DNA from: a bacterium
GTDB lineage: Bacteria > Bdellovibrionota_C > UBA2361 > SZUA-149 > JAEUWB01
Assembly: GCA_016786595.1 (NCBI GenBank)
Contig: JAEUWB010000060.1
Location: 62,001 to 126,000, forward strand
DNA: 64,000 nucleotides
Direction: 5' to 3'
Every line of letters begins with the position of its first letter. Position 1 is the first letter of the stretch. The position numbers and the translations under genes are program-made. The notes under the pieces are model-generated. The model saw nothing but the letters and a program-made list of their open reading frames with translations, did not search any database and was not told where the DNA came from. Positions 5,926-42,106 of this stretch are shown one piece after another.

Positions 5926-5951
5926 GCTACCTCTCAAAAAAATCAACAATA

Positions 5952-27551: not shown

Positions 27552-28547
27552 TTATACTACTTTGTGCATCAATGAAATCGAATCGAGCGGGCTTTTTGTC
27601 CCGATTCCTTTTTCCAGAGTTACATGAGTGTAAATCATCGTAGTTTTAAGATCATTGTGACCAAGTAGAACTTGAAGTGTTCGTATATCAGTGCCCGACT
27701 CGAGCAGGTGTGTAGCAAAAGAGTGTCTGAAAGTATGGCAGCCAACTTTTTTGTTTAAGCCGATCGTTTTGATAGCTTTTGCAAGGGAATTTTGCATAAT
27801 CGAGGGGTAGATATGCCAGCGACTTTCCTGTTTCGAGCGCGGGTCGATTGATCTTTTGGATGATGGAAAAACAAATTGCCATTTCCATTCACTACAAGCA
27901 CTGGGGTATTTTTTACTTAAAGCATAAGGAAGAATTGTTTTGCCAAATCCTTGAGAAATGTCATGATCATGAATTGCTTTTGATTTTTCCAACTGTTTTT
28001 CTAGAGGCATTTTTAGGAAAAGCGGAAAGGGGACAACTCGATCTTTATTTCCCTTAGCGTCGCGGACCAAAATCATATTTCTTTCAAAATCTAAATCTTT
28101 TACACGCAGTTTAAGAGCTTCAGTGAGGCGCATACCAGTGCCATAGAGCAGGCATGCAATTAAGTAATGAACCCCGTGAAGTTGCTCTAGGATCAATTTA
28201 ACTTCTCGTTTACTTAGCACGACAGGGATGTGTTTTTGTTGTTTAGCCCAGTAGATGCCAGTGAAATTGCCGATTTCTAACTTTAGAACTTCACGATAAA
28301 GAAAAACCAATGAATTTAGAGCTTGATTTTGTGTGGCAGCAGCTACGTGCTTGTTAACTGCGAGATAGGAGAGAAACTGCACAATTGCATTTGTCCCAAG
28401 ATTTTTGGGATGTTGCTTGCGATGAAATAGAATAAACCGTTTTGCCCAGTTGATATAGGCCTTTTCAGTCGCAAGGCTCATATGATTTAAGCGCATTACC
28501 ATGCGCATTTGATCAAGTAGTTTTGGCTTTAAATTTTCTTGTTGCAT
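27552..28547 (-). CDS. intI: integron integrase IntI (tyrosine recombinase)
   Basis: 331-aa site-specific recombinase that inserts and excises cassettes at attI and attC. The catalytic residues are Arg140 (GTGMRLTEAL), Lys in the 165-168 region, HTFRH with His271 and Arg274, His297 and nucleophile Tyr306 (TTMIYTHV). The IntI-specific insertion that grips extrahelical bases of folded attC is present at about 206-235 (LPYALSKKYPSA, WKWQFVFPSS), which separates it from XerC/XerD. AGGAG lies eight bases before the ATG at 28547, so I prefer that to the GTG three codons upstream. It appears intact. Confidence 0.96.
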   Translation of the reverse strand: MQQENLKPKLLDQMRMVMRLNHMSLATEKAYINWAKRFILFHRKQHPKNLGTNAIVQFLSYLAVNKHVAAATQNQALNSLVFLYREVLKLEIGNFTGIYWAKQQKHIPVVLSKREVKLILEQLHGVHYLIACLLYGTGMRLTEALKLRVKDLDFERNMILVRDAKGNKDRVVPFPLFLKMPLEKQLEKSKAIHDHDISQGFGKTILPYALSKKYPSACSEWKWQFVFPSSKRSIDPRSKQESRWHIYPSIMQNSLAKAIKTIGLNKKVGCHTFRHSFATHLLESGTDIRTLQVLLGHNDLKTTMIYTHVTLEKGIGTKSPLDSISLMHKVV

Positions 28548-28823
28548 TTTGAACACTCCTTATCAGGCTGTTTATTCATTTATCGGTCAATCTGTGAGTA
28601 TTGTTGCCTAGCAAGGCATGTGTAGTGGGGGTGAGGAGTTTAGATCTCCAGTTCTATCGACTGGATAATAAACTGACGAAGCAATAAAATTTTCGCTTAA
28701 TTGTTACGATTAACTGCCTGAACCGAATACAAAAATCATAGAAATAATTTGATTTATGATATTAATAGGCGGTATATTATCAAAGAAATTTTAGGTAGAT
28801 CCTCAGTTATGGTGATCTATATG
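28548..28823. other. attI region and integrase promoter region
   Basis: About 275 bases between intI and the first cassette hold no gene. The recombination point is the GTT of GTTATCT at 28823-28829: the first cassette begins there with TTATCTTTCC, whose reverse complement (GGAAAGATAAC) recurs at the left edge of attC1. Promoters for intI and the array should lie here, but I cannot identify them securely and see no clear LexA box of the CTGT-N8-ACAG type. Confidence 0.65.
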
Positions 28824-28846
28824 TTATCTTTCCAAACCAGCGAAAG

Positions 28847-29365
28847 TTAATTGTTCCCAAAACCAATCTTTTTCTTTTTAACAGGCTCAACGATTTGCTT
28901 TGGCTTCGTATCGATTAATTCTCGAATGCTATTAAATACAACTCTGAATTGAGCGTCATATCGCTTTTCGAGTTTATTCAATCTTTCAGAGAGTTCTTTG
29001 TTCGTTGAGATCATTTCTCTCATCTTGATAAAGGCGCGAACGATTGCAATGTTTACCTCTACTGCTCTTTCGCTATTCAAAACACTGGATAGCATCGCAA
29101 CTCCATGCTCTGTAAAAGCATAAGGCAAAGCTCTTCTACCAGGCTTTCCGCTTGAGGTCACAATTTGTGACCGTAAACCTGAATATTCCTCAGTAGTTAG
29201 CTGAAACATGAAATCTTGCGGGAATCTGTTTAAGTTTCTTTTCACAGCTTGAACCAGCGCTTTTGTGCGCACTTGATATAGGCGCGAAAGATCTTCATCC
29301 AGCATTACCTTTTGATCTCGAATTAAATATATAGATTTTTCAATGGCTTGCTCTACTTTCTGCAT
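28847..29365 (-). CDS. ORF6N-domain DNA-binding protein (cassette 1, reversed)
   Basis: 172 aa. Residues about 10-110 form an ORF6N domain (IRDQKVMLDEDLSRLYQV, FPQDFMFQLT, YAFTEHGVAMLSSVLNS), a phage-type DNA-binding module common in mobile elements. The C-terminus is a coiled coil (NKELSERLNKLEKRYDAQF) and a basic tail (PVKKKKIGF). The gene points against the array, towards intI, so it must use its own promoter. Reversed cassettes often carry toxin-antitoxin or regulatory genes; here only one protein is present. Its target is unknown. Confidence 0.85.
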   Translation of the reverse strand: MQKVEQAIEKSIYLIRDQKVMLDEDLSRLYQVRTKALVQAVKRNLNRFPQDFMFQLTTEEYSGLRSQIVTSSGKPGRRALPYAFTEHGVAMLSSVLNSERAVEVNIAIVRAFIKMREMISTNKELSERLNKLEKRYDAQFRVVFNSIRELIDTKPKQIVEPVKKKKIGFGNN

Positions 29366-29418: not shown

Positions 29419-29474
29419 AGATAACAATCAAATCGAGCGGTCTGCTTCGCAGCCGCTCATTTTAACCGTTAGCC
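29419..29474 (+). repeat. attC: attC1 (short type)
   Basis: R'' AGATAAC at 29419-29425, R' GTTAGCC at 29468-29474, central stem GAGCGG/CCGCTC and CTGC/GCAG around TTC. The left flank GGAAAGATAAC is the exact complement of the cassette's start at 28823-28833. Cassette 1 therefore spans 28824-29468. Confidence 0.93.
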
Positions 29475-29519
29475 AGCAAAAGTTAAGAAGGAATCTTTAC
29501 GAATAGTTTAAGAGCAACA

Positions 29520-30191
29520 ATGCGAGTTTCATATAGTATTGCTTGCCAGTATCTGGCTGCTAGCGAGCTTTTCATTCGAGAAGCGATTCTACTTGAATCC
29601 AATTTCAATAATAGTTTAATTCCTGAAGAACAGGTGAGAATCGCGGAAATCAAACACAAAGGGTTAATTTCTGCTGTCATTATGCAGTGCTGTGCGGCTT
29701 TGGAGTCTTCCATTTATCAAGTAGTTCATGATGGTCCTGGATGGCACAAAGGATCCAACGGCATTAATTTGGATCAAAAAAATTACTTAAATAAATTTAA
29801 GGATTTAATTGATAAGACTCAAGGAGTTGTTGAACGCTTCAAGGTAGTTCTCGATCTATTAAAGTTGGAACCTTTAGATCTTGGAAAAAATCCAAATCAA
29901 AGCGTTATCATCTTAGTCGCTCTTCGAAATGAATTAGTACATTTCAAGCCGGTCGCAGTAATCCCATTTGACGATGAAAAGTTATTGAAGAAGCTCAAAA
30001 GCCTTAATCTAAACGAGTCCCCGTTTCCAGGTGCAAAGTCGATCTTTTTTCCTAATGCATGTTTAAGTGCTGATTGTGGAAAGTGGAGCCTTGAAAGTAC
30101 GGTGAATTTTCTTAACAGTTTCTATTTAAAACTTAATGCAGGTAACCCGATCGAGCATTACAAAGAAATGTGCGACACAATCGCTGGCTAA
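29520..30191 (+). CDS. HEPN-like hypothetical protein (cassette 2)
   Basis: 223 aa, mostly helical. The segment ALRNELVHFKP near 142 has an R-x4-H arrangement (RNELVH), the mark of HEPN-type RNases and nucleotidyltransferase partners. An earlier helix, MQCCAALESSIYQVV near 56, fits the four-helix HEPN core. I infer a HEPN-like fold without knowing whether it is catalytic. The stop codon lies inside the R'' box of attC2, a usual economy in cassettes. No antitoxin partner is present in the cassette. Confidence 0.65.
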   Translation: MRVSYSIACQYLAASELFIREAILLESNFNNSLIPEEQVRIAEIKHKGLISAVIMQCCAALESSIYQVVHDGPGWHKGSNGINLDQKNYLNKFKDLIDKTQGVVERFKVVLDLLKLEPLDLGKNPNQSVIILVALRNELVHFKPVAVIPFDDEKLLKKLKSLNLNESPFPGAKSIFFPNACLSADCGKWSLESTVNFLNSFYLKLNAGNPIEHYKEMCDTIAG

Positions 30192-30283
30192 CAAAAAAAT
30201 CCACCAGATTTTACCCCCTCTTAACTAATTGGTTTGATTAAGGGTTCTTTTGGAGGTAAAACTGGTGATTTAAGACGTTATAC
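30186..30283 (+). repeat. attC: attC2 (long type)
   Basis: R'' GGCTAAC 30186-30192 and R' GTTATAC 30277-30283. The ATCCACCAG/CTGGTGAT arms pair with one extra base. GCTGGCTAAC complements the cassette's first ten bases at 29468. Cassette 2 is 29469-30277. Confidence 0.92.
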
Positions 30284-30296
30284 GGCTAGATACAAT

Positions 30297-30926
30297 ATGG
30301 ATTTATACGACATCATAACGCTGGCAAGTAGCATCGCATCAATTGTGATTTCAGTGCTTGCAATTATTCTTTCGATCTACTTTTACACGCAAACTAAAAA
30401 TTCGGAATCAAACGTCACGTCCGCTCTTGCTGAAATTAAATCTCAGAGTGAGTCCTTGCAGAACCTCACTGGCAGATGGATGGATCGACTTACAAATTAC
30501 GCTACACAGGATAAAACAGCGCTACTTGAAAAGTTTATCTCAATGCAGCGATTACCAGAGGTAAACTCAATTGCTCAAGTGCCTCCGCAAAGTGATTTGG
30601 ATAAAACGAATAAAGAACAGCTCGCGGCAGGAGTCTTAGCCTACGCTCTTATCTCTCTTTATTACGCGGTTTACACCAATGTGTTAGCTGCTAGTTATCT
30701 TCCCAAAAGATCTACTTTTGATGCGGATAATCAGCTGCATATCTTAATTAAGAGACTTTTAGATGGAAGCGCAAAAGATGTTGCCATACTCAAGGCGGCA
30801 GTAGATCAACTTGAAAAAGCTTTCCCGCAACAATATAAAGAATGTCAGGCACTTCATTTACTTGATGATGTTAATCATTTTATCTCATCTGTGAAGCCCG
30901 CTTCAGATGTGTTGTTGGGGCTTTAG
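30297..30926 (+). CDS. membrane-anchored coiled-coil protein, unknown (cassette 3)
   Basis: The start is the ATG 14 bases after the attC2 right box; a longer frame would run back into attC2. The 209-aa product has one N-terminal transmembrane helix (IITLASSIASIVISVLAIIL), a heptad-rich segment to about 70, and a helical soluble C-terminus. The architecture (N-terminal anchor, coiled coil, helical domain) is common in small phage-defence or stress proteins, but I recognise no family. Confidence 0.6.
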   Translation: MDLYDIITLASSIASIVISVLAIILSIYFYTQTKNSESNVTSALAEIKSQSESLQNLTGRWMDRLTNYATQDKTALLEKFISMQRLPEVNSIAQVPPQSDLDKTNKEQLAAGVLAYALISLYYAVYTNVLAASYLPKRSTFDADNQLHILIKRLLDGSAKDVAILKAAVDQLEKAFPQQYKECQALHLLDDVNHFISSVKPASDVLLGL

Positions 30927-30937
30927 CAATGTACGCC

Positions 30938-31036
30938 GTATAACAATCAGGTCGTGACGGAGAAACGGGGTGCGAAATTTCGTGGCGATTTTAATTGATT
31001 AGCTGCCCCGTTTCCCGCACACTTTAAACGTTATAC
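30938..31036 (+). repeat. attC: attC3 (long type)
   Basis: R'' GTATAAC 30938-30944, R' GTTATAC 31030-31036. GAAACGGGG pairs with CCCCGTTTC. GCCGTATAAC complements the cassette start at 30277. It shares its arms with attC8 and attC13. Cassette 3 is 30278-31030. Confidence 0.93.
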
Positions 31037-31087
31037 GATAAATTCGTTCAGAGGTAACAAACTCGTGAGAGACCGTAAATAAAAGCA

Positions 31088-31924
31088 ATGGCTAAGAAAA
31101 ACCAGTCGCGAAGGCTAACAAATCAACACAAACAATCGCAAGGCGTAGTTGGAATTTTTGGGGAAGATGCGAAATCACACGACCGTTCAGTTGGCAAAGT
31201 CTCAAAAGTAATCATTGAGCAGTTTGAAAGCGAATATCCTCAGTTATCTTTTCGATACAGAGAGACCATAAAAAAGGAAGAAATCAACGAAGCACTAAAA
31301 AAAGTTGACCCTACATTGGGTCAGACACTGTTTGTTTCAAATTCCAGCATCAAACCTGATGGGGGAATAATTGAGGTAAGAGACGACAATGGAGATTGGA
31401 GAGTCATCTTAGTGGCCGAGGCCAAACATCAAGGAAAAGACGTAGAGAATATAAAAAATGGTTTACAAGTCGGTACAAAAAACGATCAGGATTTAATGGC
31501 TGCTGGAAATGCAATAGAAAGAGCCCATAAAAATATATCAGAAATAGCCAATTTGATGCTGTCTGAGTGTCATTTCCCGTACGTTTTGTTCCTTGAAGGG
31601 TCAAATTTTCTAACAGAAACTATCACAATTACAAGACCCGACGGAAGGATCGTAACTCTAGAGTATAATTCAGGTATGTTAAACAGACTAGATAGACTGA
31701 CTGCCGCAAACTATGGAATGCCTATGAATACAAATTTATGCGTTAATAAATTCATTAAACACAAGAATAAAACTATAATGCTTCAAGCTGCTTCTATTTA
31801 CTCTCAGGGTCGAGGTGAAAAATGGGACGTCGAGAAAATGTATGAAATAATGCTAGAGATTTCCAAAACGTCACTTAAAGTTTTGGGGAGCGATCTATTT
31901 ACCCAGATTACATCCAATAAATAG
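31088..31924 (+). CDS. ecoRIR: EcoRI-type type II restriction endonuclease (cassette 4)
   Basis: The 278-aa protein is a close homologue of R.EcoRI (277 aa) along its whole length. The PD-(D/E)xK centre has the same numbering as EcoRI: Asp91 in SSIKPDGG, then Glu111 and Lys113 in VAEAK. The recognition segment MAAGNAIER (137-145) retains Asn141, Ala142 and Arg145, and the stretch NLEYNSG/LDRLTAANYGMP is preserved. I therefore predict cleavage of GAATTC. The gene lies first in a two-gene cassette, 39 bp before its methyltransferase, the same order as in the original EcoRI plasmid. Confidence 0.96.
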   Translation: MAKKNQSRRLTNQHKQSQGVVGIFGEDAKSHDRSVGKVSKVIIEQFESEYPQLSFRYRETIKKEEINEALKKVDPTLGQTLFVSNSSIKPDGGIIEVRDDNGDWRVILVAEAKHQGKDVENIKNGLQVGTKNDQDLMAAGNAIERAHKNISEIANLMLSECHFPYVLFLEGSNFLTETITITRPDGRIVTLEYNSGMLNRLDRLTAANYGMPMNTNLCVNKFIKHKNKTIMLQAASIYSQGRGEKWDVEKMYEIMLEISKTSLKVLGSDLFTQITSNK

Positions 31925-31963
31925 AGAAATGCTAGTTCTGTTATAGTTTAAGATAGGGATCTA

Positions 31964-33007
31964 ATGGCAAGAAATGCGACAAACAAATTACTGCAGAAAG
32001 CAAAAAAGTCAAAAAGCGACGAGTTCTACACGCAGCTTTGCGATATTGAAAGCGAATTAGGTTTTTACAAAACACACTTCAAGGACAAAGTCGTTTACTG
32101 TAATTGCGACGACCCAAGAATAAGCAATTTTTTTAAATATTTTGCTCTCAATTTCGAAGAACTTGGAATTAAGAAATTGATTACCTCTTGCTATAGAGAG
32201 CAACGCGCCGATCTTTTTAGTGAAAAAAGTGATGAAAGCGGATTTTTCTTTGAATACACAAATGCTGATGATGAGAAAAATAAACTTAATTCAATTAAAG
32301 TAAAACCATTCAAAGGGAGTGGTGATTTTCGCAGCGCTGAGTGCATCGAGTTATTAAAAAAATCAGATATTGTTGTCACCAATCCGCCTTTCTCACTATT
32401 TAGGGAGTATGTTGAGCAATTAGTCAAATACGATAAAAAGTTTTTAATCATCGGAAATGTGAATGCAATTACATACAAAGAGATCTTTAAGCTGATCAAG
32501 GATAATAGAGCTTGGCTTGGAATAAATCTAGGCAGAGGGGTTTCTGGTTTTATCGTTCCCGAACACTATGAACTTTATGGAACGGAGGCTCGTATTGATG
32601 AGTTTGGTAACAGGATTGTATCGCCAAACAATTGCTTATGGCTTACAAATCTTGATACTTTTAAACGACATCAAGATATTTTGCTTAAAAAGAAATATTA
32701 TGGGAATGAGCATGAGTATCCAAGATATGATAATTATGATGGGATTAATATTAATAGAACAGAAGATATACCTCTGGACTATGAAGGAGCTATGGGGGTG
32801 CCAATAACATTCCTACACAAATTCAACCCAGATCAGTTTGAACTAATTAAATTTAGAAAGGGAAATGATGGAAAGGACTTGTCAGTCAACGGTAAGTGTC
32901 CATATTTCAGAATACTTATCAAGAACAAGCGCATTCAGAGACAATCCAATATGCCGATCCCGTATAACAATCAAATCGAGCGGATGCTGAAGCACCGCTC
33001 ATTTTAA
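31964..33007 (+). CDS. ecoRIM: EcoRI-type adenine-N6 DNA methyltransferase (cassette 4)
   Basis: Close homologue of M.EcoRI: it begins MARNATNKLL, as the original does. The adenine methyltransferase motif NPPF is at 140-143, with VVYCNCDDPR near 43, GRGVSGFIVPEHYELYGTEA near 190 and IPLDYEGAMGVPITFLHKF near 270. It should methylate GAATTC and protect the host. AGGGA precedes the ATG. It is 347 aa against 326 for M.EcoRI: the natural end is near KNKRIQ, after which the frame runs on into attC4 and stops within it (TAA 33005-33007). The last 15 residues (PYNNQIERMLKHRSF) are attC-encoded. Confidence 0.96.
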   Translation: MARNATNKLLQKAKKSKSDEFYTQLCDIESELGFYKTHFKDKVVYCNCDDPRISNFFKYFALNFEELGIKKLITSCYREQRADLFSEKSDESGFFFEYTNADDEKNKLNSIKVKPFKGSGDFRSAECIELLKKSDIVVTNPPFSLFREYVEQLVKYDKKFLIIGNVNAITYKEIFKLIKDNRAWLGINLGRGVSGFIVPEHYELYGTEARIDEFGNRIVSPNNCLWLTNLDTFKRHQDILLKKKYYGNEHEYPRYDNYDGININRTEDIPLDYEGAMGVPITFLHKFNPDQFELIKFRKGNDGKDLSVNGKCPYFRILIKNKRIQRQSNMPIPYNNQIERMLKHRSF

Positions 33008-33016
33008 CCGTTGTCC
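32962..33016 (+). repeat. attC: attC4 (short type)
   Basis: R'' GTATAAC 32962-32968, R' GTTGTCC 33010-33016. The central stem GAGCGG/CCGCTC is as in attC1. The left box complements the cassette start at 31030. It contains the stop codon of the methyltransferase. Cassette 4 is 31031-33010, about 1.98 kb. Confidence 0.92.
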
Positions 33017-33038
33017 CTTCAATTTTATGGTACCTCTG

Positions 33039-34106
33039 ATGACTAAAAGATTTATTTTCACTTTTGTTTTCTTAATTGCCTTTTCATTTAACTTGCCATT
33101 ATTTGCCGAAACGAAAGTCGGCGTGATCGTTCCATTGTCTGGTGCTCTTGCAGAATATGGGGTCGCTATTCGAAACGGAATTCAAATGGCGCAAAAAGAT
33201 AATCCCGAACTATTTGCTTCATGTAATTTTCTTTACGAAGACTCTAAATACGATCCAAAGACTGCAATAAGTGCTTTTAATAAATTGGTTAGTTCCGACA
33301 AAATTAATATAGCCTATAATTTTGGAGGGCCGACATCAGCGGCAATTGCTCCTGTAGCGAGCAAGACAAAAACTCCTTCATTGCTATGGACTACTGATCC
33401 AAGTGCAGTAGCTCGGTATGAATATGTAATTAGATTTACAAATGATGCTATTGAATTTACAAAATCCTTAGCAAATTATCTGAACTCAAATAATCAAAAG
33501 CGTCTTGGAGTTGTAATAACTGAGAATCAATATCTAAACAGTATTCTCAATGGGTTAAAGACAAGCTTAGTACCTGGGCAAACATTAGAAGTCATAGACA
33601 CTGTTCAGCCATCTGATACAGACTTTCGATCTATCGTGACAAAGTTGCAAAAAAATTCGTATGATTCTATTGGAGTCTTTATGTTGTCAGGACAAATCGG
33701 ACAATTTTATAGACAACTTCAGCAGCAAAATAAACTCACTGCCACATTTGGCACCGACTTTTTTGAAAGTTCAACGGAAATAAAATCAGCGGAAGGTGGA
33801 ATGAACGGCGCCGTTTACACTAACAACACCGTACCATCCAGTTTCGCTCAAAAATACAAATCTCTATACGGAAATGATTTGCAACTTACCTATGCAGGTA
33901 ATGGATACGATTTCGCTACATTAGCTTGCAGAACGCTTGCTAAACAACAATCTGCCGAAGGAATAATGAGTATCTTAGAGGCAGCAGAAAATAGATCAGG
34001 AGTTTTAGGAAATTATAATTTTATCAAAACAGCTGCGGGGGACAAATTCTTCCGATTTCCAGTCGCAGTGAAGAAAATTGAAGGATCTGAGTTTAAGGAT
34101 CTATAG
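33039..34106 (+). CDS. periplasmic substrate-binding protein, branched-chain amino acid type (cassette 5)
   Basis: A signal peptide (MTKRFIFTFVFLIAFSF to FAE) is followed by a type I periplasmic-binding fold of the Peripla_BP_6 family: KVGVIVPLSGALAEYGVAIRNG, FLYEDSKYDP, NFGGPTSAAIAPVA and GYDFATLACRTL. Such proteins deliver branched-chain amino acids, amides or aromatic acids to ABC importers or sensors. The cassette carries no permease or ATPase, so it must borrow another transporter or act as a receptor. I prefer the ATG at 33039, where the signal peptide begins, to one four codons upstream. Confidence 0.85.
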   Translation: MTKRFIFTFVFLIAFSFNLPLFAETKVGVIVPLSGALAEYGVAIRNGIQMAQKDNPELFASCNFLYEDSKYDPKTAISAFNKLVSSDKINIAYNFGGPTSAAIAPVASKTKTPSLLWTTDPSAVARYEYVIRFTNDAIEFTKSLANYLNSNNQKRLGVVITENQYLNSILNGLKTSLVPGQTLEVIDTVQPSDTDFRSIVTKLQKNSYDSIGVFMLSGQIGQFYRQLQQQNKLTATFGTDFFESSTEIKSAEGGMNGAVYTNNTVPSSFAQKYKSLYGNDLQLTYAGNGYDFATLACRTLAKQQSAEGIMSILEAAENRSGVLGNYNFIKTAAGDKFFRFPVAVKKIEGSEFKDL

Positions 34107-34111
34107 GCCAG

Positions 34112-34210
34112 GGACAACAAAAAACGCCACGCAGAATTCTAACCCGCTTAATTTTGTACATGATTAAGAAAGTGTTCTGGGTTAGAATCTGGTGCGTTTA
34201 AACGTTAGGC
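34112..34210 (+). repeat. attC: attC5 (long type)
   Basis: R'' GGACAAC 34112-34118, R' GTTAGGC 34204-34210. AACGCCACGCAGAATTCTAA pairs with the opposite arm near 34181-34201, with an extra base. It contains a GAATTC site. GGGACAAC complements the cassette start. Cassette 5 is 33011-34204. Confidence 0.92.
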
Positions 34211-34221
34211 CGCAAACAAGT

Positions 34222-34926
34222 ATGACGGATTCAATTTTCGAAAATTTACCTCCGGTAGATCAACTTGAGTTCTCTGATCCTGCCGATATTGCAGCTCGCA
34301 TTCTGCCGGAGCTGATTTCACGATGGGAATCCAGTCGACGAGGACTGAGCTTTCATAACTTAACACTTGGAAATGATCTGCCAGAAGAATGTTACTTAGC
34401 CATGTCTGAGGGACTTTCGTGGTTAATTCGCGAAGGATTATTAGTTCAAGCGCCTGGACAACAGGGCGGTTGGTATGTTCCCTCCAAACGCGCAAGACAA
34501 CTAAAGACGGCAATAAATTTCAAATCATTCAAGGCTGAATCTTTACTACCGCATGCTTTGCTTCATCCTGATGTGGCAAAAACATGTCATGCAAATTTTG
34601 TCTCCGGAAATTACAACTCTGCGGTTTTTAATGCTTTCAAAGAAGTCGAAGTTGCCGTTAGAACCGCAGCCAATCTCACAGATTCAGACATTGGGGTAAA
34701 TTTGGTTCGTAAAGCATTTCACCCTGACACAGGCACTTTGAGCGATAAAACCCAGCTTCCAGCCGAACGCGAAGCTCTCGCAAACTTATTTGCAGGTGCA
34801 ATCGGCTCCTACAAAAATCCTTCAAGTCATCGCAAAGTGAAGATTGATCCAGCACAGGCGGTTGAAATGATTCTTTTAGCTAGCCATCTTTATAAGATTG
34901 TTGAGGCGCGGGTGCCCAATCCATAG
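34222..34926 (+). CDS. TIGR02391 family protein (Hypoth_Ymh), cassette 6
   Basis: The 234-aa product matches the TIGR02391/Ymh family, whose conserved C-terminal part is visible here: NSAVFNAFKEVEVAVRTAA near 138, then LVRKAFHPDTGTLSD, PAEREALANLFAGAIGSYKNPSSHR and VEMILLASHLYKIVEAR. That part is HEPN-like: RxxL...NPSSHR resembles the R-x4-6-H arrangement. Family members often lie in defence islands; their activity is not established to my knowledge. I start at the ATG after the cassette boundary (34222) rather than at the upstream GTG inside attC5. Confidence 0.85.
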   Translation: MTDSIFENLPPVDQLEFSDPADIAARILPELISRWESSRRGLSFHNLTLGNDLPEECYLAMSEGLSWLIREGLLVQAPGQQGGWYVPSKRARQLKTAINFKSFKAESLLPHALLHPDVAKTCHANFVSGNYNSAVFNAFKEVEVAVRTAANLTDSDIGVNLVRKAFHPDTGTLSDKTQLPAEREALANLFAGAIGSYKNPSSHRKVKIDPAQAVEMILLASHLYKIVEARVPNP

Positions 34927-34928
34927 CG

Positions 34929-35022
34929 GCCTAACAAAAGGATCGAAAAGATGTCGCGCCTTAAGCATTTGCTTTGACTAAGTTTTGGTTTGGCGCGACA
35001 CTTTTCATCCTAAACGTTGTAC
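34929..35022 (+). repeat. attC: attC6 (long type)
   Basis: R'' GCCTAAC 34929-34935, R' GTTGTAC 35016-35022. The arms GATGTCGCGCC and GGCGCGACAC pair with an offset. GCGGCCTAAC complements the cassette start at 34204. Cassette 6 is 34205-35016. Confidence 0.92.
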
Positions 35023-35034
35023 CTCTAAGACAAT

Positions 35035-35754
35035 ATGACTGATACCTATCGAGAACACGGAGAAGTTTGCGCAAAGTTCTACCAGCTTACGGTCGATTCA
35101 AGTGCTGTCGCGGAATTCATACTTTGCAACTCTCCTGCGCGTCCGACTGAGAAAGCTCTCTTTGTTGGTGGCATGTTCGATATTGCCGGTGCGTTGCACA
35201 GATACGGATTAGACATAACTGTAGTAGACTATACGCCAGAGATGGTTGCTCTTGGTCGAAGGGCTCTTCCAACTGTTCGAATAGAGCAAGCTGACTTAAG
35301 AAAACTTCCTTATCAAAATGAATTTGATCATGTTTTTGTTGTAGGGCGTGTTTTTACACACATGATTTCAAATGAGGATTTACATCTCGCTTTGGCAAGC
35401 TGCCGGAAGGCACTCCGCGCAGGCGGGCACCTCTTTTTTGATAACTATGAAGACACAAAGATTCGGGTAACAAATTACTTTAACGGGACTGTGCGTGCCG
35501 AATCGAATGCTTCAAAGATTGAGCGGAATTCAGCAACGACGCTTCTTTCCGAGTCTCCCTATATAGTCTCTTGGCGGGCTCGCTATACTGGCGATATTGA
35601 GGGAAGACCTTTTGATTTTTCGGATGCAATGGAACATAGGGCTTGGTCGCGGCAAGAAATCGTACCTTTCTTAAAAAATGCGCAGTTCAAACTGATTAAA
35701 CAGGGTCTTAATTTTGATGAAACTAGCTTTTTTAATCTCGCCCAAGCTGTATAA
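35035..35754 (+). CDS. class I SAM-dependent methyltransferase (cassette 7)
   Basis: 239 aa with a Rossmann-fold methyltransferase core. The motif I equivalent is ALFVGGMFDIAGAL near 42-55 (a variant of the usual DxGxGxG). Motif II acid is VVDYTPEMVALGRRAL near 63, then ADLRKLPYQNEFDHVFVVG and LRAGGHLFFDNYED. The glycine-rich loop lacks the usual acidic residue, so SAM binding may be unusual. Substrate unknown; small-molecule methylation is the commonest role of this type. Confidence 0.8.
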   Translation: MTDTYREHGEVCAKFYQLTVDSSAVAEFILCNSPARPTEKALFVGGMFDIAGALHRYGLDITVVDYTPEMVALGRRALPTVRIEQADLRKLPYQNEFDHVFVVGRVFTHMISNEDLHLALASCRKALRAGGHLFFDNYEDTKIRVTNYFNGTVRAESNASKIERNSATTLLSESPYIVSWRARYTGDIEGRPFDFSDAMEHRAWSRQEIVPFLKNAQFKLIKQGLNFDETSFFNLAQAV

Positions 35755-35757
35755 GAG

Positions 35758-35853
35758 GTACAACAATCCGATCAACGAGATTCGCGCCCCTGTAGATTGG
35801 TGGTTAATTTGGCGGTATCATTGAGCGCGAACTCGTTATCGAGAACGTTCTAC
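35758..35853 (+). repeat. attC: attC7 (long type)
   Basis: R'' GTACAAC 35758-35764, R' GTTCTAC 35847-35853. AACGAGATTCGCGC pairs with GCGCGAACTCGTT with one extra base. GAGGTACAAC complements the cassette start. Cassette 7 is 35017-35847. Confidence 0.92.
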
Positions 35854-35905
35854 GCCTTAAATTTTTCTCCTTGCAAAAAATTCTTAATAATTATATTATA
35901 ATTAT

Positions 35906-36190
35906 GTGAGCAATATTAGATTTACCTGGGACCTGGCTAAAGCGACGCAAAACCGTCGTAAGCACGGAGTTTCTTTCGAAGAGGCACAATCTGTCTTTTA
36001 TGACGACTATGCTCAATTAGCCCCAGATCCCGATCACTCTAAGGAAGAGGATCGTTTTATCTTACTCGGCCGTAGCAGCCAAATGAGACTACTCATTGTT
36101 TGCCACTGTTACCGAGAAAGTGATTCGGTAATTCGAATTATCTCAGCACGCAAAGCAACCAAAAAAGAACAACGGGCTTATCCAGGATGA
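35906..36190 (+). CDS. brnT: BrnT family RNase toxin (cassette 8)
   Basis: 94-aa toxin of the BrnT/BrnA type II system. Diagnostic are FTWDLAKATQNRRKHGVSFEEA at the N-terminus (family consensus is FEWDPxKxxxNxxKHGVxFExA) and the C-terminal RIISARKATKKEQRAY. BrnT degrades RNA and halts growth. The start is GTG with no obvious ribosome-binding site. brnA begins four bases after the stop. Toxin-antitoxin cassettes are typical stabilisers of large integron arrays, because loss of the cassette is punished. Confidence 0.93.
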   Translation: MSNIRFTWDLAKATQNRRKHGVSFEEAQSVFYDDYAQLAPDPDHSKEEDRFILLGRSSQMRLLIVCHCYRESDSVIRIISARKATKKEQRAYPG

Positions 36191-36194
36191 AATT

Positions 36195-36458
36195 ATGAGA
36201 AAAGAATATGATTTTTCAGGCGCAGTTAAGAATCCCTATGCAGCTAAGCTCAAAAAGCAGATAACAATCCGACTTGATGAAAGCGTGATTGATTACTTCA
36301 AGTTATTGGCATCTGAGTTTGACATGCCATACCAGAACTTGATTAATCTTTACTTAAAGGACTGCTCTGCTGAAAAACGTAAGCCAAAGCTTCGGTGGGT
36401 TCCCGGCGTAGAACAATCAAGTCGTGACGGAGAAAAGGCACGCAAAGGTTCGCGGTGA
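36195..36458 (+). CDS. brnA: BrnA family antitoxin with attC-encoded C-terminus (cassette 8)
   Basis: 87 aa. The BrnA core is a ribbon-helix-helix-like DNA-binding segment, KKQITIRLDESVIDYFKLLA, with the following helix YQNLINLYLKDC. It neutralises BrnT and represses the operon. AGGA lies upstream of the ATG. The native end is probably near LRWVPG: the frame crosses the R'' box of attC8 at 36408 and stops only at 36456-36458, so about the last 15 residues (VEQSSRDGEKARKGSR region) come from the recombination site. Confidence 0.9.
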   Translation: MRKEYDFSGAVKNPYAAKLKKQITIRLDESVIDYFKLLASEFDMPYQNLINLYLKDCSAEKRKPKLRWVPGVEQSSRDGEKARKGSR

Positions 36459-36506
36459 TTCTAGTTGATTAAGAGCCTCGTTTGCCGCACACTTTAAACG
36501 TTAAGC
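36408..36506 (+). repeat. attC: attC8 (long type)
   Basis: R'' GTAGAAC 36408-36414, R' GTTAAGC 36500-36506. GGCGTAGAAC complements the cassette start at 35847. It is closely related to attC3 and attC13 (GTCGTGACGGAGAAA, then GCACACTTTAAAC). Cassette 8 is 35848-36500. Confidence 0.91.
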
Positions 36507-36517
36507 GCTAAAAATTT

Positions 36518-37261
36518 ATGGCTGAAGACTTCAAGCAACCTCCAGGTCAGTACGCTATTCACCGTCCTAGATATCATAGAGAGCTTTTTCAATGGCTTGC
36601 TTCTATATCTCCGTCAAATAGATGTGCTTGGGATTGTGCGACTGGAGCAGGACAGGCTGCGGTAGGGCTTGCAGAGTTTTTCGACATAGTGCTTGCAACT
36701 GATATCAATAAAGAGCAGATAGATCATGCTGAGCCACATCATAAGATCCAGTATTCCGTTTCACCCGCTGAGCAGAATGATTTTAAATCCCAGTCGATTG
36801 ATCTAATTACAGTGGCATGTGGTGTTCATTGGTTTGATAGAAAGCAGTTTTTTGAGACTGCAAAGCGACTCTTAATTCCCAAAGGAGTAATCGCTGTGTG
36901 GACATATAAGTGGCCATGGACAAACTCGAAAGAAGTCGATCGGGTATTAGCCAAACTAAAGGACACAATATTGGAAAATTACTGGCCTCAGGAAAGTAAG
37001 CTATATTTTAGTGGATACGCTGACATTGATTTTCCATTCGAAGAAATTCAAGTTCCGCCTTTTACCCTTGAGTGCGATTGGCAGGTTGAAGATTTGATTG
37101 GTTTTATTTCAACATGGTCAGCAGTGCAGCGATATTTAAGAGTCAATGGTAAATCACCTATAGAGCTCGTTAAGGCTGATTTGATAGCCGCCTGGAAGAG
37201 TTCTCCACCAAAATTACCACTCGAATTGCCACTATATTTTCGAGTTGGATACAGCCCATAA
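36518..37261 (+). CDS. class I SAM-dependent methyltransferase (cassette 9)
   Basis: 247 aa of the Methyltransf_11 type. Motif I is AWDCATGAGQAAVGLA near 37-52 (the common D-x-G/A-x-G-x-G loop), motif II FDIVLATDINKEQIDHA near 56, then SIDLITVACGVHWFD near 93 and LLIPKGVIAVWTY. The sequence HWF after motif IV is usual in the trans-aconitate or small-molecule group. Substrate unknown. The stop TAA is shared with the R'' box of attC9. It is a different methyltransferase from those of cassettes 7 and 14. Confidence 0.85.
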   Translation: MAEDFKQPPGQYAIHRPRYHRELFQWLASISPSNRCAWDCATGAGQAAVGLAEFFDIVLATDINKEQIDHAEPHHKIQYSVSPAEQNDFKSQSIDLITVACGVHWFDRKQFFETAKRLLIPKGVIAVWTYKWPWTNSKEVDRVLAKLKDTILENYWPQESKLYFSGYADIDFPFEEIQVPPFTLECDWQVEDLIGFISTWSAVQRYLRVNGKSPIELVKADLIAAWKSSPPKLPLELPLYFRVGYSP

Positions 37262-37354
37262 CAATTTACTCAACCAGCTTTCCACGCCACTTGAGTAAGA
37301 TTCTGATTCGAGAGATAATTCTGGCGTGAAAACTGGTTAGTTCTTACGTTATAA
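37256..37354 (+). repeat. attC: attC9 (long type)
   Basis: R'' CCATAAC 37256-37262, R' GTTATAA 37348-37354. CAACCAGCTTTCCACGCCA pairs with TGGCGTGAAAACTGGTT. The left box matches the cassette start only in its inner bases, so this cassette may be a hybrid. Cassette 9 is 36501-37348. Confidence 0.88.
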
Positions 37355-37372
37355 GGTCTAAAGGGAGGAAGT

Positions 37373-37765
37373 GTGAACGATCAACACAGACATTACTCGG
37401 ACAAGCTAAATTACGAAATTGACTCATGGGATCTCAAGGTCGTTCTTGAGGCGGGCGAACAGGTCACTGTCATTGATGCCCGATCTCCTGAAGCGTTTCA
37501 GCGTGAGCATATACCCGGCGCTATCAACATCCCGCATCGTACCATGACACTTGAAAGTACGGAGCACATCGAGAAAGGCGCACTCGTTGTGGTTTACTGC
37601 GACGGGATAGGTTGCAATGCCTCGACCAAAGGGGCACTCAACATGCTCAAGCTTGGCTTTCGCGTGAAAGAGCTCATCGGTGGACTTGATTGGTGGAAAC
37701 GTGATGGACACATGACTCACGGCAGATCGAGCTCAGATGAGTTGGTGTCCTGTGGCTGTAGCTGA
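37373..37765 (+). CDS. single-domain rhodanese (cassette 10)
   Basis: 130-aa rhodanese-fold protein. VIDARSPEAFQREHIPGAINIPH (about 33-55) is the canonical CH2A/CH2B region, and the active-site loop YCDGIGCNAS near 75 starts with the persulfide cysteine. It can transfer sulfane sulfur to a thiol acceptor. The tail ends in VSCGCS with two cysteines, which may be a relay. The GTG start has a strong GGGAGGAAG ribosome-binding site. No partner in the cassette. Confidence 0.88.
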   Translation: MNDQHRHYSDKLNYEIDSWDLKVVLEAGEQVTVIDARSPEAFQREHIPGAINIPHRTMTLESTEHIEKGALVVVYCDGIGCNASTKGALNMLKLGFRVKELIGGLDWWKRDGHMTHGRSSSDELVSCGCS

Positions 37766-37777
37766 ATCCTGTGTGCC

Positions 37778-37833
37778 GTCTAACAATCAAATCGAACGGA
37801 CTGCTTTGCAGCTGCACACTTTAGACGTTCTAT
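37778..37833 (+). repeat. attC: attC10 (short type, diverged)
   Basis: R'' GTCTAAC 37778-37784, R' GTTCTAT 37827-37833. The central stem around CTGCTTTGCAG keeps the short-type pattern but outer pairs are lost (GCTGCACA in place of GCCGCTCA). Cassette 10 is 37349-37827. Confidence 0.85.
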
Positions 37834-37870
37834 TTTTCACGAAAAGATAGTTAACTGGGATAAGAGGAAC

Positions 37871-38437
37871 ATGTCGTATAGACCAGAAATAATTGGCTTT
37901 AATTCAGGAAGATTTCTTCGCTTACTTGGTTCAAACGATCAAAAGGCACTTGAAGAAATTTCGACCCATATCGTTTCTCAGTTTGCGGACGATAAAGCTA
38001 CTAGTACGCAATGTTTGTCAATTTTGAAGACTGCAATCACCGAGAGCCTTCCTCTTCCTAATCTGGAAGAGGAGACATACGAGCATTCGTGTGTCGCCGA
38101 AGCAATTATGCGGTACGATCAAGATTTGATGCTGACCAATTCTAATATTTTACGGTGGTCAGTGATGTCTGATATGATTAGTGAATTCGCTGAGTCTCCA
38201 AATAGCTCGGATAAAATCGATCATATTTGTCATTACATTACCAATGGTAGGCCGATATTTGGTCAGAGTGTTTATTGGGAATCGCCCTATTTCTATCTGC
38301 TCAACAGTGAGCTTATAACTTTCACCACAACCTTGGCGTCGACGGAATTCGAAGACTTTGAGTCAATCGAGCCATTAGTTAAAATTATGTCTGCAATAGG
38401 AAGTAATGGTTTAGATATGTGGTGTCGGATTCAATAA
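37871..38437 (+). CDS. hypothetical protein (cassette 11)
   Basis: 188 aa, acidic and helical, with no recognised domain, signal or membrane segment. The N-terminus (MSYRPEIIGFNSGRFLRLLGSNDQKALEEI) and repeated acidic turns (EFEDFESIEPLV) give it the look of an immunity-type or adaptor protein, but this is only impression. AAGAGGAA precedes the ATG. It is the first, intact gene of a cassette whose second half has decayed. Confidence 0.6.
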   Translation: MSYRPEIIGFNSGRFLRLLGSNDQKALEEISTHIVSQFADDKATSTQCLSILKTAITESLPLPNLEEETYEHSCVAEAIMRYDQDLMLTNSNILRWSVMSDMISEFAESPNSSDKIDHICHYITNGRPIFGQSVYWESPYFYLLNSELITFTTTLASTEFEDFESIEPLVKIMSAIGSNGLDMWCRIQ

Positions 38438-38846
38438 TAGAAAGGCTAGCCATAGATCTCCATTATTGCCTGCGGGAAAATATACCAAACCGAAAAAAAA
38501 TACTTTTCCGCGTATATAAGAGTTTTTCGCCTGCGTTTCGCATTGTAGATTGATATTTTATTAACGACATTCAGGGTGGTTCTGTTGTAGACATAGTATC
38601 CATCCCCAATAGCTCGACAATCAAGCAACAATTGCCTGACGGAAGACTAGATCCTTAGATGGAATTCGTCTTGTTGCGGCGCTTCAACAGAATGGAGAAA
38701 TCTTACTTGTCCAGTATGATCCGGGATTCCCTCCTGGCTGGTCAGCTAGCGATCCAAAGAAAGATATCAAAAAAATGACAATTTCGGCTAAAGATCATGA
38801 AAAGTTTCTTTCCTTATTGAGGTCAATTAAGTTTATAAATGGATAA
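38435..38846 (+). pseudogene. decayed reading frame in second half of cassette 11
   Basis: After the 188-aa gene, about 410 bases keep a broken plus-strand frame. One frame is open from about 38435 through ENIPNRKKILFRVYK and then hits TGA at 38551. It continues to TAG at 38656, and a shifted frame (open from 38640) gives GIRLVAALQQNGEILLVQYD and ends TAA 38844-38846 in the R'' box of attC11. This is best read as a cassette gene that lost its start, gained a stop and a frameshift. Family unknown. Confidence 0.4.
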
Positions 38847-38895
38847 CAATCAAATCCAGCAGACGATAAATCGTCGCTCTTTTTAACCGTTATGC
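38841..38895 (+). repeat. attC: attC11 (short type)
   Basis: R'' GGATAAC 38841-38847, R' GTTATGC 38889-38895, hairpin GACGATAAATCGTC. The left box does not complement the start of cassette 11 (TTCTATT), implying that a junction was lost and two cassettes fused. Segment 37828-38889. Confidence 0.87.
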
Positions 38896-38911
38896 AGTAT
38901 AAAAAAGCCCT

Positions 38912-39256
38912 ATGAATAAAAAAAATGTTCTATTTATAATACTCGGAACTTTTTCTATTTATTTACTATTTATCGGTGTACGAACGACAATAGATATGCC
39001 TATATCAGGATCATCCTATCTTGTACCTCGATGGCCTTTTGAGAATGATTTTGAGTATTGCGCTGGACCACTTCCTGAAGATGTAGACCGAGGATGCCCT
39101 GAAAAAGAACCATTCATTTCGTGGACAATTTACTATAACTTGATTATTCCTCTGTTTGGACTTTTGATCAGTGCGACAATTCCTGGGAATTACAAATTAC
39201 TTATTCCTTTTCTCTGTAGCTTATGTTTTGCGGCATATGCTTATTTCAGCCTCTGA
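38912..39256 (+). CDS. small membrane protein (cassette 12)
   Basis: 114 aa with three hydrophobic helices: 6-24 (LFIILGTFSIYLLFIGV), about 75-92 and about 95-112. The first loop of about 45 residues is extracytoplasmic and holds CAGPLPEDVDRGC, a probable disulphide. No family recognised. The stop codon TGA abuts the R'' box of attC12. Confidence 0.65.
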   Translation: MNKKNVLFIILGTFSIYLLFIGVRTTIDMPISGSSYLVPRWPFENDFEYCAGPLPEDVDRGCPEKEPFISWTIYYNLIIPLFGLLISATIPGNYKLLIPFLCSLCFAAYAYFSL

Positions 39257-39361
39257 CTAACAATAAACGCCACGCCGGATTCTAATCCACTGAATTTTGT
39301 AGATGATTAAGAAATTGTCTCGGGTTAGAATCTTGTTGGCTTAACAGTATAACGGTTAAAA
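39255..39361 (+). repeat. attC: attC12 (long type)
   Basis: R'' GACTAAC 39255-39261, R' degenerate GTTAAAA 39355-39361. The arms GGATTCTAA and TTAGAATC pair. It is closely related to attC5. Cassette 12 is 38890-39355. Confidence 0.85.
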
Positions 39362-39376
39362 CGCAGATGGTCTGAT

Positions 39377-39814
39377 ATGGAAATTTTTCAAGTGCAGGTC
39401 GAGGATCTAAACGAAGTTCACGCCCTAGGTCGAAAAGTTTTTGGAGATATAGCGCACTCGTCACTTGTCATACGTCAGCTTTGGGATCAAAATCATCCAT
39501 TTGTTTGGGCAATAAGAAATCCAAATATTCTTGGCTACTGTATCGGGGGGATAGAAGCCGGAACTACGACGGGACATATAATGTCTCTTGCTGTTGATCC
39601 TGAAGCCAGACGTCAGCGTATTGGTTTTATCCTAACAGAAAAGGTTATGGCTGAGTTTGTGAAATACAACGTTAGCGAATATAAATTAGTTTGTTCCCCT
39701 ACAAATACAGCGGCAATATCACTTTACGAATCGCTTGGATTTAAACAAGGTGAGATAATTCAAGATTACTTTGGTCCTGGCGCGCACAGACTTGCGATGA
39801 GTCGTGCGGTATAA
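39377..39814 (+). CDS. GNAT family N-acetyltransferase, RimI-like (cassette 13)
   Basis: 145-aa acetyl-CoA-dependent N-acetyltransferase. The acetyl-CoA pyrophosphate loop is seen as VDPEARRQRIGFILTEKVM near 74 (consensus Q/RxxGxG/A; here RQRIGF), preceded by the beta-4 strand GHIMSLA and followed by SPTNTAAISLYESLGFKQG, the usual N-terminus-acetylase ending. The substrate may be a protein N-terminus or an antibiotic or polyamine; sequence does not decide. GNATs are frequent cassette cargo. Confidence 0.85.
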   Translation: MEIFQVQVEDLNEVHALGRKVFGDIAHSSLVIRQLWDQNHPFVWAIRNPNILGYCIGGIEAGTTTGHIMSLAVDPEARRQRIGFILTEKVMAEFVKYNVSEYKLVCSPTNTAAISLYESLGFKQGEIIQDYFGPGAHRLAMSRAV

Positions 39815-39904
39815 AAAAAATCGTAAGGAGAAACGGAGGGCGAAACTCTGCTGTGATTTCGGTTGATTAGCCGCCCCGTTTCCTGCAGACTTAAGCCGTT
39901 AGAC
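39809..39904 (+). repeat. attC: attC13 (long type, left box mutated)
   Basis: The R'' box reads GTATAAA (39809-39815) instead of GTATAAC, and the R' box is GTTAGAC (39898-39904). The arms AAACGG and CCGTTT are as in attC3. With the AAC lost, recombination at this site should be weak. Cassette 13 is 39356-39898. Confidence 0.8.
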
Positions 39905-39927
39905 CGCCAAAAGAGAGAATCTTACCC

Positions 39928-40620
39928 ATGCAAAGCAACTCACGTCCAACATCAAAGATAATCGATCTGACGCAAACACTTTGTGCTGAGATTCCTTCCT
40001 GGGATGGAGATTGCGGTTTTAACCTTTCTGTTTCGGTTGACTATACGGATTGCGTTGCCCCAGATCTTTTCCGCGTCCAGTCAATTTCAACTCGAGCAGG
40101 GATGGGAACTCATATTGATGCTCCTGCACACTGCATCTCAGGAGCCAAGACTGTAGATGATTTGGTAATTGAGAACTTAATCACAAGTTGTGTGACAATC
40201 CACTTAGATCAGTTCGCGGATGAGAATTATGTAGTCATGCCTGAAATTGTTCATAAATTTGAGAGAGAAAATGGCCAGATTGAACCTAGCTCCTTCGTAA
40301 TTTTTTATACTGGCTGGAGTAAATATTGGAATAATCCAATCGAATATCGCAACGGATTGAGGTTCCCAAGCTTACATGAACAAACTGCTCAACTGCTTCT
40401 AGAGAGACACATTACGGGATTGGGCACTGATACACTTTCTGCTGATTCTAAAGGAAACTCGTTCCCAGTTCATCGAGTAATTCTAGGAGCAGGCAAATAT
40501 CTTGTAGAGAATATAGCAAATGCCGACGCACTTCCGGCTACTGGGGCGCAAATATTTGTGCTACCAATGAAGATTAGAGACGGAACTGAGGCACCAGCTC
40601 GTATTGTTGCGTTGGTGTAA
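39928..40620 (+). CDS. cyclase family protein, kynurenine formamidase-like
   Basis: 230-aa metal-dependent cyclase/hydrolase (KynB family). The metal motif is GTHIDAPAH near 60-68 and the helper motif HRVILGAG near 184. The N-terminal KIIDLTQTL and DTLSADS (near 171) are also typical. KynB cleaves N-formylkynurenine; other members act on cyclic amides or isatin. It starts after the attC13 boundary. No attC follows it within the next kilobase, so it may share a merged cassette with the downstream methyltransferase. Confidence 0.88.
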   Translation: MQSNSRPTSKIIDLTQTLCAEIPSWDGDCGFNLSVSVDYTDCVAPDLFRVQSISTRAGMGTHIDAPAHCISGAKTVDDLVIENLITSCVTIHLDQFADENYVVMPEIVHKFERENGQIEPSSFVIFYTGWSKYWNNPIEYRNGLRFPSLHEQTAQLLLERHITGLGTDTLSADSKGNSFPVHRVILGAGKYLVENIANADALPATGAQIFVLPMKIRDGTEAPARIVALV

Positions 40621-40653
40621 ATCAGTTGTCGTTTTATGCCCATGAGTTGAGTT

Positions 40654-41475
40654 ATGAACCCACAACCAGAAAATCTCGCGAAAGGCTATGACTCTACCTA
40701 TCAGGAGTTTGATACTCCGCTTCAGCGAAAAATTCGAAGAGAAGCATACGGCGAAGATATCGGACAGCACTCTTGGGTCACGGTTTCAGAGCTAGAAGAA
40801 GCGAGGCAACTACTCAATTTGTCTCAGGCTGATATACTTTTGGACTTCGGTTGCGGTCCATGCGGCCCCTTAACATTCTTAGTCAATGCAAGTCGCTGTC
40901 AAGGTATTGGAGTCGATATCAGTGCCCCTGCACTGGCAGTAGGAAAAAATCGCGCAGACCAAATGGGTATCAACTCTCTGATTCAGCTACAAGAGGTAGA
41001 CGGTAATAAACCTATTCCTTTCGAGAATGGATATTTTAGCAAGATTGTCTCTTTCGATGTAGTCCTCCATTTAAAAGATAGAAACAAAGCTTTTCACGAA
41101 ATCGCGAGAACGCTTGTGCCAAAAGGACAATTTCTCTTTACAGACGCAGGGATTGTAACTGGAGTGCTATCGAACGAAGAAATTAAACTGCGCAGTATTA
41201 ACGGATTTACTCAGTTTGTGCCACCTGGCTTCAACGAAGAACTCCTTAAAAATTGCGGGTTTCATATTCTAGAGCAACAGGATCGAACTAGCGGGGTAAT
41301 TACAAATGCATCGGGCCGTATCAAAGCACGCAATAACTATCGCAAAGAACTTCTATCTATTGAAGGGGAGGAGAAATTTGAACAACAGCAAAATTACCTT
41401 CAAACAGTTGTAAACTTGGCTGAACGGAAGGCACTTTCAAGGGTTATCTATCTGACTGAAGTAGGCTTGGTATAA
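40654..41475 (+). CDS. class I SAM methyltransferase
   Basis: 273-aa methyltransferase with motif I DFGCGPCGPLTFL near 64, motif II QGIGVDISAPALAVGK near 84, and the post-I segment DGNKPIPFENGYFSKIVSFDVVLH near 113. LKDRNKAFHEIARTL is the usual conserved helix before the final substrate domain. It resembles the sarcosine/dimethylglycine or cyclopropane-fatty-acid-like group, but the substrate is not fixed by sequence. It starts 33 bases after the cyclase stop. No attC separates the two, so they travel together. Confidence 0.85.
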   Translation: MNPQPENLAKGYDSTYQEFDTPLQRKIRREAYGEDIGQHSWVTVSELEEARQLLNLSQADILLDFGCGPCGPLTFLVNASRCQGIGVDISAPALAVGKNRADQMGINSLIQLQEVDGNKPIPFENGYFSKIVSFDVVLHLKDRNKAFHEIARTLVPKGQFLFTDAGIVTGVLSNEEIKLRSINGFTQFVPPGFNEELLKNCGFHILEQQDRTSGVITNASGRIKARNNYRKELLSIEGEEKFEQQQNYLQTVVNLAERKALSRVIYLTEVGLV

Positions 41476-41502
41476 TACTTTTTTTGATTATGAAGTTACT
41501 CT

Positions 41503-41805
41503 CTATAGTCCAGTTATTGGCTTTGAAAGAAGCTCAAGAAGTTTTGGAACTAAAACAGCTAGATGTTCAATTTCATTAGATTGAGACTCAAGAACTATCA
41601 CCGCAATCTTGAACTTACCCAGGCTTTGTTGTGTAGCAAGATGTTGATCGATTGTAATAAAACTATCAAATCCCTCCTGCGCAAGGGCAAGAAGTTTCCC
41701 GTTCGTGATCCCATTCCAGCCAGCCTAAGTGACTGTTATCGCCTCGTGTCCAACCAGAAGTAGCCTCAGTTTTTTTGGCAAACACTCATCTATAAGAATT
41801 CTCAT
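41503..41805 (-). pseudogene. DUF5615 PIN-like toxin gene interrupted by an in-frame TAG
   Basis: A 303-base frame reads MRILIDECLPKKLRLLLVGH and continues with the DUF5615 signature AGWNGITNGKFLALAQEGFD, ITIDQHL and KIAVIVLES to its natural end. At codon 27 (41725-41727), just before AGWNG, it has TAG where a sense codon (possibly CAG) is expected. The frame is otherwise intact. The ATG overlaps the antitoxin stop (ATGA), the usual operon arrangement. A single substitution appears to have disabled the toxin. Confidence 0.8.
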
Positions 41806-42017
41806 GCTACCTTAGTTTTGCTAACAACATCTTCGCGTAATTCATTAAGAAGCTGGGTTACTTGGTCACGTTTTACAGAGGGGAAATCGTCAAGAAACTC
41901 ATCCACTGTACTGCCAGCTTCAATATAATCAAATAGGTTTTTTAGGGGTACGCGAGTTCCTAGGAAAGTAGGTGTTCCGTTTAGAATTTCAGGATTGATT
42001 TGAATAACGTCTGACAT
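41802..42017 (-). CDS. DUF433 antitoxin
   Basis: The 71-aa DUF433 protein begins MSDVIQINPEILNGTPTF and has the invariant GTRVPLKNLFDYIEAGSTVDEFLDDFPSV, the helix-turn-helix of VapB-like antitoxins that pair with DUF5615 toxins. I start at ATG 42017 because the domain begins there; an earlier ATG adds 12 unrelated residues. It is intact while the toxin beside it is interrupted. The gene runs against the array, as toxin-antitoxin modules in cassettes often do. Confidence 0.88.
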   Translation of the reverse strand: MSDVIQINPEILNGTPTFLGTRVPLKNLFDYIEAGSTVDEFLDDFPSVKRDQVTQLLNELREDVVSKTKVA

Positions 42018-42034
42018 ATCGCTATTATGGCGCC

Positions 42035-42106
42035 GTATAACAAACGAATCCACTAGATTTATTGCTTCGCTCGAAACAGATGATTCTAGCTTTTAATCCG
42101 CTAAAG
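42035..42106 (+). repeat. attC: degenerate terminal attC-like site
   Basis: R'' GTATAAC is perfect at 42035-42041; the right box reads GCTAAAG (42100-42106) for GTTAAAG. Inner arms are weak (CTAGAT and GATTCTAG). It is probably the last, dead attC of the array. Confidence 0.5.

Follow-up and report, generated by a model that had tools for sequence, protein, structure and literature searches.

An EcoRI-family restriction-modification system carried as a single two-gene cassette in a chromosomal integron

Background

Few restriction enzymes have been studied as closely as EcoRI, and most of what is known of its natural movement comes from plasmids. Restriction genes have also been met in integrons, where those for XbaI and HphI occur in super-integrons. 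On EcoRI plasmids of E. coli, both the protection of cells from phage and the killing of cells that lose the plasmid have been measured (PMC11324026), and the promoters of the EcoRI methyltransferase gene (M) have been located within the gene for the restriction endonuclease (R; PMC3874152). The occurrence of type II restriction-modification (R-M) genes in some integrons, which the original prediction for this locus gave as established, is indeed reported in PMC12409362, where integron cassettes with R-M and other phage-defence genes are described with citation of Darracq 2025, Kieffer 2025 and Getz 2025, and likewise in PMC9892861 and PMC12444791. The literature searched, a scope outside which the main 2025 Science papers lie, names no EcoRI-family cassette. 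R-M cassettes as such are already known, and those of the EcoRI family are an apparent addition with respect to the papers searched.

Here we describe an R-M pair from the window, by which we mean the whole stretch of 64,000 nucleotides that was analysed. In our reading, which we hold to be very probably correct, it is a complete type II EcoRI-like system that occupies one two-gene cassette of a chromosomal integron and works there as set out below.

The EcoRI-family gene pair

The two open reading frames are both intact, lie on the same strand and are separated by 39 bp:

31088-31924, + strand: EcoRI-family restriction endonuclease R, 278 aa (Pfam EcoRI profile PF02963 covered over 1-257 of 257, E 3.6e-145)
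31964-33007, + strand: EcoRI-family adenine methyltransferase M, 347 aa, with NPPF at residue 140 (EcoRI_methylase profile PF13651 matched over 2-343 of 345, E 8e-133; PADLOC MTase_II, E 2e-154)

That these proteins resemble R.EcoRI and M.EcoRI had been proposed from the letters of the sequence, and the comparisons agree with the proposal for both. R aligns with residues 1 to 276 of the EcoRI chain 2oxv_A with zero gaps, and M matches the family profile over nearly its full length and carries the NPPF motif; a search of solved structures with M gave no match. Read from the translation at EcoRI numbering, the catalytic D91, E111 and K113 of R are present, and A138, N141, A142, E144, R145, R200 and R203 are unchanged, so that all six of the residues originally named (Asp91, Glu111, Lys113, Asn141, Ala142 and Arg145) are where they had been placed; the loss of key residues, which the same prediction had named as fatal to it, was looked for in the translation and no loss was seen.

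R is 75.0% identical to the EcoRI of E. coli plasmids, and its 25% divergence, which lies outside the residues tested, counts against the explanation that we prefer. This degree of identity leaves room for change, and a system that recognises some sequence other than GAATTC might be imagined on that account; with all seven recognition residues unchanged in an alignment free of gaps, we consider such a shift highly improbable. Because the recognition and catalytic residues are conserved, methylation and cleavage at GAATTC are the predicted activities of the pair, and recognition of GAATTC may be taken as a strong inference from the protein sequences.

The pair differs from its plasmid counterpart at the end of M, which stops at 325-326 aa in plasmid EcoRI and in the window reads into the attC site described below, to 347 aa, its last 14 codons overlapping that site (32962-33016). 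Comparison of homologues places the end of the conserved part of M at about the same point in the relatives, several of whose tails likewise extend into a downstream site, and since the tails themselves differ, the C-terminal tail of M appears to be free to vary.

The cassette and its array

In an integron cassette, the first core box and the R'' box of the cassette's own attC should be reverse complements. A loose first scan for attC sites picked up chance matches by the hundred on either strand, and was replaced by a test of whether such pairings form a chain along the DNA, together with a covariance model (R1) that was built from ten other attC sites and left out the two that flank the R-M pair. 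The features of the array are as follows, with R1 scores in bits and paired boxes given by position:

27552-28556, - strand: intact integron integrase IntI, 334 aa (TIGR02249, 419.7 bits, cut-off 265)
28823-28829, + strand: predicted attI/first-cassette junction, core GTTATCT (exact reverse complement of R'' AGATAAC at 29419)
28847-29365, - strand: gene of cassette 1, in reverse orientation, ORF6N domain (PF10543, E 9e-34)
29419-29474, + strand: attC of cassette 1, short and by alignment almost identical in type to the R-M attC (49.1 bits)
30186-30283, + strand: attC of cassette 2 (93.3 bits; GTTAGCC at 29468 pairs with GGCTAAC at 30186)
30938-31036, + strand: attC of cassette 3, which borders the R-M cassette on the left and was left out when R1 was built (48.9 bits, E 8e-9; GTTATAC at 30277 pairs with GTATAAC at 30938)
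31031-33010, + strand: fourth cassette of the array, 1,980 bp, with the EcoRI R-M pair (core GTTATAC at 31030 pairs with GTATAAC at 32962; next core GTTGTCC at 33010)
32962-33016, + strand: 55-nt attC belonging to the R-M cassette, also left out when R1 was built (49.3 bits, E 6e-9)
33027-34106, + strand: gene of cassette 5, periplasmic binding protein (PF13458, E 2e-26)
34112-34210, + strand: attC of cassette 5 (81.9 bits; GTTGTCC at 33010 pairs with GGACAAC at 34112)
34929-35022, + strand: attC of cassette 6 (73.8 bits; chain pairing 34204/34929)
35758-35853, + strand: attC of cassette 7 (72.3 bits; chain pairing 35016/35758)
35906-36458, + strand: cassette 8, BrnT/BrnA toxin-antitoxin pair (PF04365, E 3e-29; PF14384, E 5e-7)
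36408-36506, + strand: attC of cassette 8 (55.4 bits; GTTCTAC at 35847 pairs with GTAGAAC at 36408)
37256-37354, + strand: attC whose R'' is mismatched to the start of its own cassette (76.2 bits)
37778-37833, + strand: attC, short type (45.4 bits)
38841-38895, + strand: attC, short type (42.2 bits)
39255-39353, + strand: weaker attC, outside the model (26.7 bits, E 1e-3)
39809-39904, + strand: last clear attC of the array (32.5 bits)

The integrase matches Vibrio cholerae IntI4 (PDB 2a3v, E 3e-77) over its full length and is the sole gene of the genome above the TIGR02249 cut-off. From the first cassette onward, the pairing of core and R'' boxes is exact in eight successive cassettes, the chain being first broken at the ninth (attC 37256-37354). 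Over the window R1 gives 14 matches (E <= 0.0034), all on the + strand and within 29419-42098, and over the whole genome of 2.57 Mb its matches at E < 0.2 all fall on one contig, in the array and at four sites to the left of the window. These four (G000:C60:53705-60693) lie 1.3 to 8.3 kb beyond the window's edge and are possibly a second small array.

Core boxes are short, and it might be argued that those around the R-M pair match by chance, or that they are the terminal repeats of some other element, in which case the pair would be no cassette at all; certain relatives of the pair, discussed below, do have matching boxes where no repeated attC is present or in the form of a long direct repeat. 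Against this stand the eight consecutive pairings in register, the recovery by R1 of both held-out attC sites that flank the pair (E about 1e-8), the intact integrase that adjoins the array and the restriction of strong attC matches to this one region of the genome, and we regard a chance or foreign origin of the boxes as extremely improbable. Since the boxes pair and the model recovers the attC on either side, the cassette is taken to be 31031-33010, and on these sequence grounds its borders are real. The original prediction of an EcoRI-family pair packaged as one cassette thus holds at the level of protein families, key residues, box pairing and the attC model, and the false attC boundaries that it had named as a ground for rejection were not what the pairing and the held-out sites revealed. 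It was mistaken in calling the boxes at 31030 and 33010 attI-proximal, as the pair is fourth in the array and the predicted attI junction lies at about 28823, and its attC to the right of the pair does exist, at 32962-33016, but within the 3' end of the M gene rather than after it.

The bottom strand of the R-M attC, in its circular form, folds at -28.8 kcal/mol. Three other sites of the array share the short type of this attC, and the closest relatives of the cassette have different attC bodies, as if the site had been exchanged.

EcoRI cassettes in other genomes

With the window protein as query, 37 EcoRI loci were found among genome contigs, 3 among viral contigs and 19 among plasmids, and phage records gave 1 partial match. 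Core boxes match around the R-M pair in L001, L002, L003, L012, L039, L040 and L041, with none of 100 shuffles of the flanks as good, and the same is true of L017, L020, L014 and four Microcystis loci. Matching boxes by themselves are no proof of a cassette, because the Microcystis boxes match where no repeated attC follows the methylase gene (L004, L009, L018 and L023) and those of L014 belong to a 102-bp direct repeat; these five were left out, and a locus was counted as a cassette only where it had further attC evidence. L017, L020, L032 and L007 are probable cassettes on weaker evidence.

Evidence of that further kind takes several forms. The array of L003, from the type strain Patiriisocius marinus KCTC 32322T, shows successive sites of 131-133 bp whose boxes pair; L039 has its own site in several copies; and L012 has a paired site on both sides of the R-M pair. 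L040 is a phage contig in which the pair (4129-6272) lies between two attC-like sites that are 88% identical, adjoining phage head-tail genes and directly after the tail-terminator gene, and the R protein of L041 is the same as that of L040.

Two loci join the cassette to antibiotic resistance genes. L001, a short metagenome contig (1-3726), reads in order an integrase fragment, the R-M cassette, aadA (AadA3-like, 589 bits) and lnu(F); at the DNA level this integrase shares about 69% identity with class 1 integrases, and so differs from the clinical class 1 gene. The bin of L001 is labelled Bacteroidetes, which is doubtful. L002 (1-9512) has the start of an OXA-5-like beta-lactamase gene at one end of the contig and the R-M pair at the other. 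The OXA-5-like core GTTAGCC pairs with GGCTAAC in the attC that precedes the R-M pair, and the simplest reading of L002 is a circular plasmid that was broken within the OXA gene. Its bin is labelled Acinetobacter, which is doubtful because the backbone is similar to Thiothrix plasmids. A search of PLSDB with the L001 and L002 pairs gave no plasmid copy near the cassette lineage, and one of E. coli genomes gave no copy of the L002 pair.

Together with a Desulfamplus locus (L031), these two are most like the window, their DNA being 81-83% identical to it along nearly the whole cassette body, with homology that begins at the core box or one base from it. They differ from it in the bodies of their attC sites and in their settings, which are an IntI-aadA-lnu(F) array, an OXA plasmid and the Desulfamplus chromosome. 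In L031 (10001-11921) the R gene is frameshifted and M is open, at 347 aa, running into its own attC. R1 is specific to the array type of the window and did not recognise the attC sites of the R-M pairs of L001, L002, L003 and L040. As judged by boxes and sites, the same kind of cassette is found also in other integrons, including two resistance-gene arrays, and in a phage, and this recurrence strengthens the claim that the EcoRI pair of the window is one cassette.

Descent of the cassette-borne systems

In a tree of R and M joined, the pair from the window falls together with L001 and L002 (support 99/95), the plasmid EcoRI is sister to these (98/98) and L039 comes next (90/97); in a tree of M, the clade of the window includes L031 (98/92). 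A single clade of all the cassette-borne EcoRI rows was rejected in the joined tree (p-AU 6e-6), from which it follows that the cassette form arose, or moved in, more than once. In the sample, which was drawn with the window protein, the nearest relatives of plasmid EcoRI are all cassette-borne. One might suppose from this topology that the EcoRI of enterobacterial plasmids descends from the cassette lineage and shed its attC once it had left an array, a proposal that we regard as tentative and rather doubtful; inspection of the flanks of EcoRI plasmids (L054 and L055) revealed no attC, attC remnant or matching core boxes.

Predicted function and expression

If the pair works as its sequence suggests, M would methylate adenine in GAATTC and R would cut GAATTC where it is unmethylated, so that phage and other incoming DNA would be cut. 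IntI would excise and reinsert the cassette through its attC, acting on the bottom strand in folded form. Upon loss of the cassette, newly replicated GAATTC sites would be exposed to leftover R, and the cassette would in this manner hold its own place, much as EcoRI does on a plasmid. The genome has 777 GAATTC sites and the window has 20, with 20.3 expected. Sites being thus not avoided in the window, no trace of long-standing restriction is visible there, and by the same token (777 sites, and no avoidance in the window) a loss of M with R remaining should be harmful. Addiction of the array by the EcoRI cassette, as was originally proposed, is a reasoned guess.

Regulation is the weakest step of this explanation. 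Only some 50 nt of leader lie between the core box and the start codon of R, which may for that reason depend on read-through or on translation of the leader; M, like its EcoRI counterpart, may be driven by promoters inside the R gene. A promoter scan of the region found sites no more often than expected by chance, as gauged by shuffled sequence, and an R-M cassette in position four may be poorly expressed. These same facts suit an alternative in which the system is a real EcoRI whose R is silent or inactive at its distance from the integron promoter, so that the cassette would do no more than methylate and be kept as a stored, non-working defence; the frameshifted R and open M of its close relative L031 are in keeping with that view. 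The R gene of the window is nevertheless intact with every tested residue, R is intact in most relatives, and EcoRI itself has promoters within its R gene, and we judge a silent R to be a genuine possibility but on balance an unlikely one. A complete and working system remains our preferred reading.

Comparison with known systems

The plasmid EcoRI systems of E. coli and Klebsiella (L054 and L055) are like that of the window in having R before M on the same strand and in keeping the key residues, and their M is 73-76% identical to that of the window; unlike the window's system, they are found on small mobilizable plasmids. With respect to the R-M cassettes known from chromosomal and mobile integrons, the system of the window is distinguished by having both genes within a single cassette of 1.98 kb that recurs across phyla. 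In being a two-gene addiction unit in one cassette, the EcoRI cassette resembles the toxin-antitoxin cassettes of integrons, of which the BrnT/BrnA pair is an example in the same array, but its predicted poison is the cleavage of unmethylated DNA, which would act on incoming DNA as well. A recurring cassette form of EcoRI would mean that integrons can pass on a phage defence and an addiction module along with resistance genes, and it offers a well-understood system in which to study how the expression of R-M cassettes depends on position in an array and whether such cassettes keep arrays in place.
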